A DNA stretch of 64,000 bases from an uncultured Opitutia bacterium (GTDB lineage: Bacteria; Verrucomicrobiota; Verrucomicrobiia; Opitutales; UBA953). This document shows, one piece after another, positions 38,792 to 39,780 of the stretch. Within the stretch, counting starts at the first letter, position 1, and the number at the start of each line of letters is the position of its first letter. The notes under the pieces were generated by a model. That model did no database searches, had not been told where the DNA came from, and saw only the letters and a program-made list of their open reading frames with translations. The stretch is taken from assembly GCA_903919185.1 (NCBI GenBank), contig CAIXHF010000007.1:1-64000 (forward strand), read 5' to 3'. Both the position numbers and the translations under genes were made by a program.

Positions 38792-39070
38792 ATGGCACGC
38801 TCTCGTAAAAAAGGTTTCTTCGTCGACCCGCATATCCTCGACAAGGTTATGGTGGCCCAAAAGGCCAACAGCCGTAAACCAATCAAGACTTGGTCCCGTC
38901 GCTCGACGGTCACCCCGGACTTCATCGGCCTCAACCTAGAAGTCCACAACGGCAAGGCCTTCGTTCCCGTCTATGTGACGGAAAACATGGTCGGCCACAA
39001 GCTCGGCGAGTTCGCTCCGACGCGTACCTTCCGCCAGCACACCCAGCCTTCTCGTAAGGAAGCCCAATAA
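38792..39070 (+). CDS. rpsS: Small subunit ribosomal protein uS19
   Basis: uS19 (92 aa) of the 30S head. [32 protein letters not shown] and [20 protein letters not shown] are typical. It is normally followed at once by rplV; here a gene for an exported protein intervenes 8 bases after its stop. Confidence 0.97.
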
Positions 39071-39078
39071 TCCTGTTC

Positions 39079-39417
39079 ATGCGCTTCGCCCTCTCCATGT
39101 CGGTCTTGCTCGCTTCCGCTGCTGCGGTTTGCGCAGGCAACCGTACGTTGGGGTCGGCCGAGTCGAATGGTCAGGCCAATGTCGTCGAAGTGGTCGTCGG
39201 TCGCAGTGCGGACCTTGTGGTCCTCGCCAGCGGTTATGACGCAGGTCTCCGTCCGGGTACCGTTTGTACGGTCTTCCGCGCGGGCCAAGCCTTCGGTTCG
39301 ATTGTCGTCGCTGATGCCTCTGAGCATCGCGCCGTGGCCTTGATTCTTTCGCTCGACGGCGGCGCCCGCATTAATCCGGGCGACACCGTTACTCTTCGCG
39401 CTAATCCCCGCATCTAA
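39079..39417 (+). CDS. Small exported protein of unknown function inserted in the S10 operon
   Basis: A 112-aa protein starting MRFALSMSVLLASAAAVCAG, a clear signal peptide with likely cleavage near residue 19. The mature part (about 93 residues) is beta-rich: VVEVVVGRSADLVVLASGYD, AGLRPGTVCTVFRAGQAFGS, and NPGDTVTLR near the end. This resembles the small beta-domain of FlgT C-terminal type found in many verrucomicrobial secreted proteins, as I recall. It lies 8 bases after rpsS and 24 before rplV on the same strand, so it must be transcribed with ribosomal proteins. It is not a ribosomal protein. Function unknown. Confidence 0.8.
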   Translation: MRFALSMSVLLASAAAVCAGNRTLGSAESNGQANVVEVVVGRSADLVVLASGYDAGLRPGTVCTVFRAGQAFGSIVVADASEHRAVALILSLDGGARINPGDTVTLRANPRI

Positions 39418-39441
39418 CCTAAACACCCTTTTATAACCGTC

Positions 39442-39780
39442 ATGGAAGTCCACGCTCTCACCCGTTTTGCCCGCATGTCGCCCCAGAAGGTGCGCGAAGT
39501 CGCCCGCCAGATTCAGGGTCTCCCTGCCGAGGAAGCCGTCCAGCTCCTCCGCTTCATCCCTCGCAAGTCAGCTCGCCTCCTGTCCAAGACCTTGGCCAGT
39601 GCGATTGCCAACGCCGAGAACAACCACCAGCTCTCCAGCGCTGATCTCATCATCGTTTCCGCCACGGTGAACCAAGGTCCCGTGCTTAAGCGCTCGATGC
39701 CGGCCGCGCGCGGCTCGGCCCACCCAATCCACAAGTCTATGAGCCACATCCGCATCGCGCTGGGCTCGGCCACTAAGTAA
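39442..39780 (+). CDS. rplV: Large subunit ribosomal protein uL22
   Basis: uL22 (112 aa) forms part of the exit-tunnel constriction. RFARMSPQKVREVARQIQG, the hairpin region KRSMPAARGSAHPIHKSMSH and ASAIANAENNHQLS are typical. Without the upstream inserted gene, the gap to rpsS would be 371 bases. Confidence 0.96.
   Translation: MEVHALTRFARMSPQKVREVARQIQGLPAEEAVQLLRFIPRKSARLLSKTLASAIANAENNHQLSSADLIIVSATVNQGPVLKRSMPAARGSAHPIHKSMSHIRIALGSATK

Follow-up and report, generated by a model that had tools for sequence, protein, structure and literature searches.

The open reading frame between rpsS and rplV in the window (the whole stretch of 64,000 nucleotides analysed) is best explained as the short form, found in Opitutales, of a predicted exported protein family that occurs phylum-wide before rplV in the S10 operon. 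This slot gene, named here for its position, is an old, selected arrangement across much of the Verrucomicrobiota. Few bacterial gene orders are as well conserved as that of the S10 operon, whose usual content is translation genes together with secY; it is unexpected to see several classes of a single phylum retain a predicted exported structural protein there, and retain it next to rplV even where rpsS no longer lies upstream. The fold of the protein is known, while the family and its phylum-wide S10-operon setting are undescribed as far as the open-access literature shows, in which we found no report of the slot gene or of an rpsS-rplV insertion in Verrucomicrobiota. The window comes from a draft genome of 2.29 Mb, whose named relatives are mainly freshwater Opitutae/Opitutales. 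Its relevant features are:

38792..39070, + strand: rpsS (uS19), upstream neighbour (Pfam Ribosomal_S19, E=1e-34; NCBIfam rpsS_bact)
39071..39078, + strand: 8-nt spacer between rpsS and the slot gene, lacking a Shine-Dalgarno-like motif (from sequence)
39079..39417, + strand: slot protein gene, 112 codons plus stop, ATG start; conserved open reading frame that 29 same-genus genomes carry in this slot
39079..39135, + strand: predicted signal peptide, residues 1-19 (Kyte-Doolittle 2.49; helix 3-18 of low confidence; type I-like cleavage between VCA and G, read by eye)
39172..39396, + strand: six-stranded FlgT_C-like beta barrel, residues 32-106 (AlphaFold pLDDT >90; FlgT 3w1e top PDB fold match; profile match to TsaP, E=4e-4)
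39418..39441, + strand: 24-nt spacer between the slot gene and rplV (from sequence)
39442..39780, + strand: rplV (uL22), next gene downstream and the neighbour with the more lasting linkage (Pfam Ribosomal_L22, E=2e-35; NCBIfam)

Conservation and selection within the genus

Computational comparison with 36 further same-genus genomes recovered the slot gene in 29 of them at 50–99% identity, and each of the 29 copies was flanked by rpsS and rplV and had the same orientation; the seven genomes without it are drafts with a completeness of 62–85%. In most of the genus relatives that were inspected, 5–9 nt separate the gene from rpsS. Over 427 pairs of relatives, dN/dS had a median of 0.28, with values of 0.22 for the barrel and 0.61 for the signal-peptide region, and third codon positions took most of the substitutions in close pairs. 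The slot gene thus evolves under purifying selection. The initial annotation had called a real gene here, a call to be abandoned if relatives carried only a non-conserved or frameshifted spacer or if the codon pattern looked neutral. Neither was found, and the conserved slot together with purifying selection bears the call out. We give next to no credence to a chance open reading frame or a foreign or phage insertion, in whose favour nothing speaks beyond the odd location, whereas the slot is conserved, the gene is under selection, and the family tree broadly tracks taxonomy. A chance origin is ruled out by conservation and dN/dS, and a phage or mobile origin was rejected, as none of 50,697 phage records matched. 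The third-position GC content of the gene, close to that of its neighbours, also argues against foreign insertion.

No family for the slot protein was found in Pfam or NCBIfam, Pfam giving only a sub-threshold match to TrkA_C, and neither scan returned a ribosomal protein family. The operon-like spacing (8 and 24 nt) and shared strand pointed out in the annotation were confirmed, the spacing being kept in relatives, and secY follows later in the same series of genes. Spacing and strand suggest that the slot gene is cotranscribed with the ribosomal-protein genes. A clear Shine-Dalgarno sequence was seen at none of five S10-operon starts inspected in the window (37909, 38792, 39079, 39442, and 39800).

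When a codon index was trained on the window's ribosomal-protein genes, the slot gene scored 0.52, compared to 0.63–0.76 for the ribosomal-protein genes and a median of about 0.46 for other long open reading frames, with the index tested on its own training genes and the comparison frames possibly including spurious ones. None of the ribosomal-protein genes tested there scored as low as the slot gene, a rough sign that the latter is not tuned to ribosomal-protein output. This weakens the proposal that the gene benefits from strong expression.

Distribution across the Verrucomicrobiota

The rpsS-rplV region was retrieved from one or a few genomes per family within the class, 90 in all; the class and phylum tallies given below count hand-picked representatives rather than a random sample. 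The two genes, described in the annotation as nearly always adjacent, form an exception here, and the slot is often filled across the phylum. The comparison of rpsS-rplV spacing among relatives, proposed at the same time, showed that the trait reaches beyond one genome and is phylum-deep. Other families of the order carried diverged homologs in the same slot (30–41% identity in the first search). Among 50 genomes inspected from other orders of the class, 32 had the slot filled by a long form of 217–359 aa, which begins with a hydrophobic N-terminus, continues as a helical region resembling a coiled coil, and ends in the same barrel. Seventeen of the remaining 18 had a normal, short rpsS-rplV junction of 0–43 nt. 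Locus L094 (genome G109) had a gap of 552 nt and no recognisable slot-gene homolog, possibly marking a decayed copy.

Of 38 genomes inspected from the other classes, 23 had the gene. Nine of these carried it between rpsS and rplV, and 14 immediately ahead of rplV without an rpsS in the 2 kb upstream; the remaining 15 of the 38 had no such gene before rplV. Several of the 14 loci were preceded by open reading frames that look non-ribosomal. Because the gene stays before rplV even where rpsS is missing from the upstream 2 kb, the linkage to rplV outlasts that to rpsS. A coil-barrel gene immediately before rplV, with rpsS not within 2 kb upstream, was noted at L212-L215, L220, L221, L224, L231-L233, L235, L242, L244, and L248, suggesting that the S10 operon is split in these genomes. 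A coiled coil carries the barrel in most lineages other than the order of the window, where it is absent. Genome G147, which we take to be Akkermansia muciniphila ATCC BAA-835, encodes a slot protein of 236 aa on the minus strand, at about 357.2-357.9 kb and flanked by rpsS and rplV, and G140, presumably Opitutus terrae PB90-1, has an empty slot. Losses leaving a clean junction occurred in many free-living lineages, for example in most Opitutaceae and in the Methylacidiphilaceae-like family f29. These repeated clean losses indicate that the slot gene is dispensable and that ribosomal-protein expression is independent of it.

A separate element was observed in family f14 (probably Opitutaceae), in which a conserved stretch of about 50–75 nt lies directly upstream of rplV with the layout AAAAGGGCAGGG-hairpin-CTGCTGTCGCC-hairpin-GGAATC. 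It occurs at L135, L136, and L149-L153, where there is no slot gene, and at L054, L056, and L058, where the slot gene is present. RNAalifold predicted 14 pairs, six of them with changes on both sides, and Rfam returned no match at the gathering threshold. A strict pattern for the element was found in two of 12 genomes, solely at the site before rplV, and the element does not occur in the 24-nt gap between the slot gene and rplV in the window. The element is a candidate cis-regulatory RNA of rplV.

Predicted export signal, predicted barrel fold, and similar envelope proteins

The N-terminus of the slot protein, MRFALSMSVLLASAAAVCA followed by GN after the putative cleavage site, opens with positive charge, continues into a hydrophobic core, and ends at a type I-like site, the sequence features expected for Sec export. 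Its hydrophobicity (2.49) is typical of a signal peptide, in line with the clear signal peptide described in the annotation, and is higher than in any of the 17 N-termini of ribosomal proteins tested (at most 1.93). Within the N-terminal 55 residues, 64 of 68 family members had a stretch reaching the hydrophobicity threshold, or 65 when one just under it is counted; the other three, without a signal-like N-terminus, probably have mis-called starts. The N-terminal helix (residues 3–18) was of low confidence in the AlphaFold model, as expected of a signal peptide. Export of the slot protein across the inner membrane is thus predicted from its sequence.

The AlphaFold model, built from an alignment of the slot protein and 42 relatives, showed six strands with pLDDT >90 over about residues 31–100. 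In the structural search proposed with the annotation, Foldseek ranked FlgT (3w1e) first in the PDB (E 2.6e-3, probability 1.00, TM 0.51), the LPHT flagellar ring containing FlgT second, and MreC (7EFT) fourth, followed by many ATPase barrel domains. The match is moderate at this E value and TM score, and unrelated proteins also contain barrels of this kind, ATPase N-domains among them. The first two names returned from a viral model library were a type IV pilus ring protein and the FlgT C-terminal domain. A profile of the domain matched PDB sequences best at TsaP of Myxococcus (E=4e-4, over both barrel halves), and a profile made from members of the order only gave a non-significant match of TsaP type (E 0.14). 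Pfam FlgT_C matched five of 14 long-form proteins (judged by E value only, the best being 6.2e-5) and eight of 30 domain sequences, four of which 30 were matched, weakly, by the MreC barrel model. The beta-rich, FlgT_C-like domain claimed in the annotation is therefore supported, both by the top fold match and by the FlgT_C matches in long-form relatives. The likeness is one of fold and interaction-module class, not of membership in a named family.

FlgT is part of the H ring of Vibrio (PMC7693769). Its C-terminal domain (PF16538; flagellar H-ring, PDB 3W1E) was the best PDB match to the slot-protein model, and by fold (AlphaFold, Foldseek) the slot protein falls with FlgT_C; by sequence it had no Pfam FlgT_C match, so it lies below the gathering cut-off of that family. 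FlgT also has N and M domains, whereas the slot protein consists of a signal peptide, a short linker, and a single barrel. TsaP is described as binding peptidoglycan and belonging to the type IV pilus machine (PMC7545093). The C-terminal FlgT_C-like domain of this secretin-associated protein (PDB 3JC8) was matched by the slot domain profile, and TsaP is an exported envelope protein, as the slot protein would be by its predicted export signal. TsaP differs in carrying LysM, which Pfam scans found in neither the short nor the long slot form, and in its length of 411 aa compared to 112 aa for the slot protein, whose gene lies in a ribosomal operon. The long form matches the rod-shape scaffold MreC (PF04085) in its order of hydrophobic N-terminus, coiled coil, and barrel. 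This plan is confined to the long-form relatives, the short form of the window having a single barrel and no coiled coil, and a PF04085 search of the host genome matched only G000:C90 (E=2e-23), the true MreC, and not the slot gene.

A second Verrucomicrobiota family (L252-L266) shares the barrel and coiled-coil plan of the long form. It differs in that it is likely membrane-anchored at the N-terminus, lies outside the S10 operon, and is present in many genomes, slot-empty ones included; its genes stand near dnaX/radC-, queE-, or rsmI-like genes (sequences read by eye). In Akkermansia-like genomes, two copies of this family were seen side by side. A domain tree, limited to 85 columns and with many unresolved forks, placed 18 second-family proteins in one set together with one very long-branched slot protein (L159), and slot proteins broadly grouped by taxon, largely apart from the paralogs.

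It is very improbable that the slot protein is a cytoplasmic ribosome or translation factor, with an N-terminus that is hydrophobic without being a signal peptide and a barrel that binds RNA or the ribosome. Its ribosomal operon company would fit such a role, barrel folds are common in translation proteins, and single family members gave weak, sub-threshold matches to KOW, EF-P C-terminal, and OB-type models. However, its N-terminus is more hydrophobic than those of the 17 ribosomal proteins, envelope proteins give the strongest matches by profile and by fold, and the mature protein, with a pI of about 6.8, is not basic.

Possible role of the slot protein and of its position

The reading we prefer, at somewhat less than even confidence, is that the slot protein is the short member of an exported family and acts as a periplasmic adaptor of the FlgT/TsaP/MreC-barrel type, with a supply tied to growth by its operon position. 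The signal peptide would direct the protein across the inner membrane, and outside that membrane the conserved barrel would serve as a protein-docking module. The protein may thereby work as a structural adaptor docking on an envelope assembly, as the C-terminal domains of FlgT and TsaP or the MreC barrel do, and its place in the S10 operon would make its supply rise with ribosome production and growth. Computation shows the gene, its conservation, its slot, the selection on it, and the fold, whereas export, the docking role, a partner, and growth coupling are what we infer.

Possible partners were sought by co-occurrence in 80 genomes of the class. Secretin, which TsaP binds in the form of PilQ, was present in 77 and MreC in 76, whatever the state of the slot; both are near-universal, so co-occurrence gives no hint of a partner, and neither secretin nor MreC co-varied with the slot gene in these genomes. 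All three genomes without secretin were slot-empty (hypergeometric p of about 0.06 by hand, two of the three coming from one family). The PF04085 MreC was not found in the Akkermansia-like genomes G147 and G211, as opposed to the 76 of 80 genomes that have it.

A rival explanation, which we consider rather unlikely, is that an envelope gene entered the ancestral S10 operon and stays there because rearrangement is costly, its position having no regulatory meaning. The clean losses in many lineages, a codon use not tuned to the ribosomal-protein level, and the presence of same-domain paralogs beside unrelated genes elsewhere in the genome are consistent with such a hitchhiker, an option already raised in the annotation. 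It is weakened by phylum-wide retention: the gene has been kept before rplV across several classes, even without rpsS upstream, although loss is possible. Retention in this place despite possible free loss suggests some advantage of the position.

Another rival reading concerns translation of the signal peptide itself, which would recruit SRP/Sec and pull the S10 polycistron to the membrane, so that ribosomal proteins and the downstream SecY would be made there and the barrel would matter less. The signal-like N-terminus is general in the family and poorly conserved in sequence (dN/dS 0.61), as a need for hydrophobicity only would predict, and secY lies downstream in the same gene run. Nevertheless, we regard such tethering as quite improbable, since conservation is strongest in the barrel (dN/dS 0.22), indicating that selection guards the mature protein, and since at the rpsS-less loci the gene seems to come first, not directly preceded by ribosomal-protein genes.

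That the gene ties envelope output to ribosome synthesis, as the annotation had suggested, is not established. A more ambitious proposal, to which we assign a low probability, is that the Verrucomicrobiota have an ancestral ribosome-envelope link, in which an S10-encoded periplasmic adaptor, through a dose that follows ribosome synthesis, determines the capacity of an envelope-growth machine. We know of no bacterium in which ribosome production is coupled to the envelope through an adaptor encoded in the S10 operon. The slot gene gives a tangible way into the question of how envelope growth may be matched to ribosome content and, if G147 is correctly identified, its long form in the gut microbe A. 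muciniphila would make this testable in a cultivated organism.
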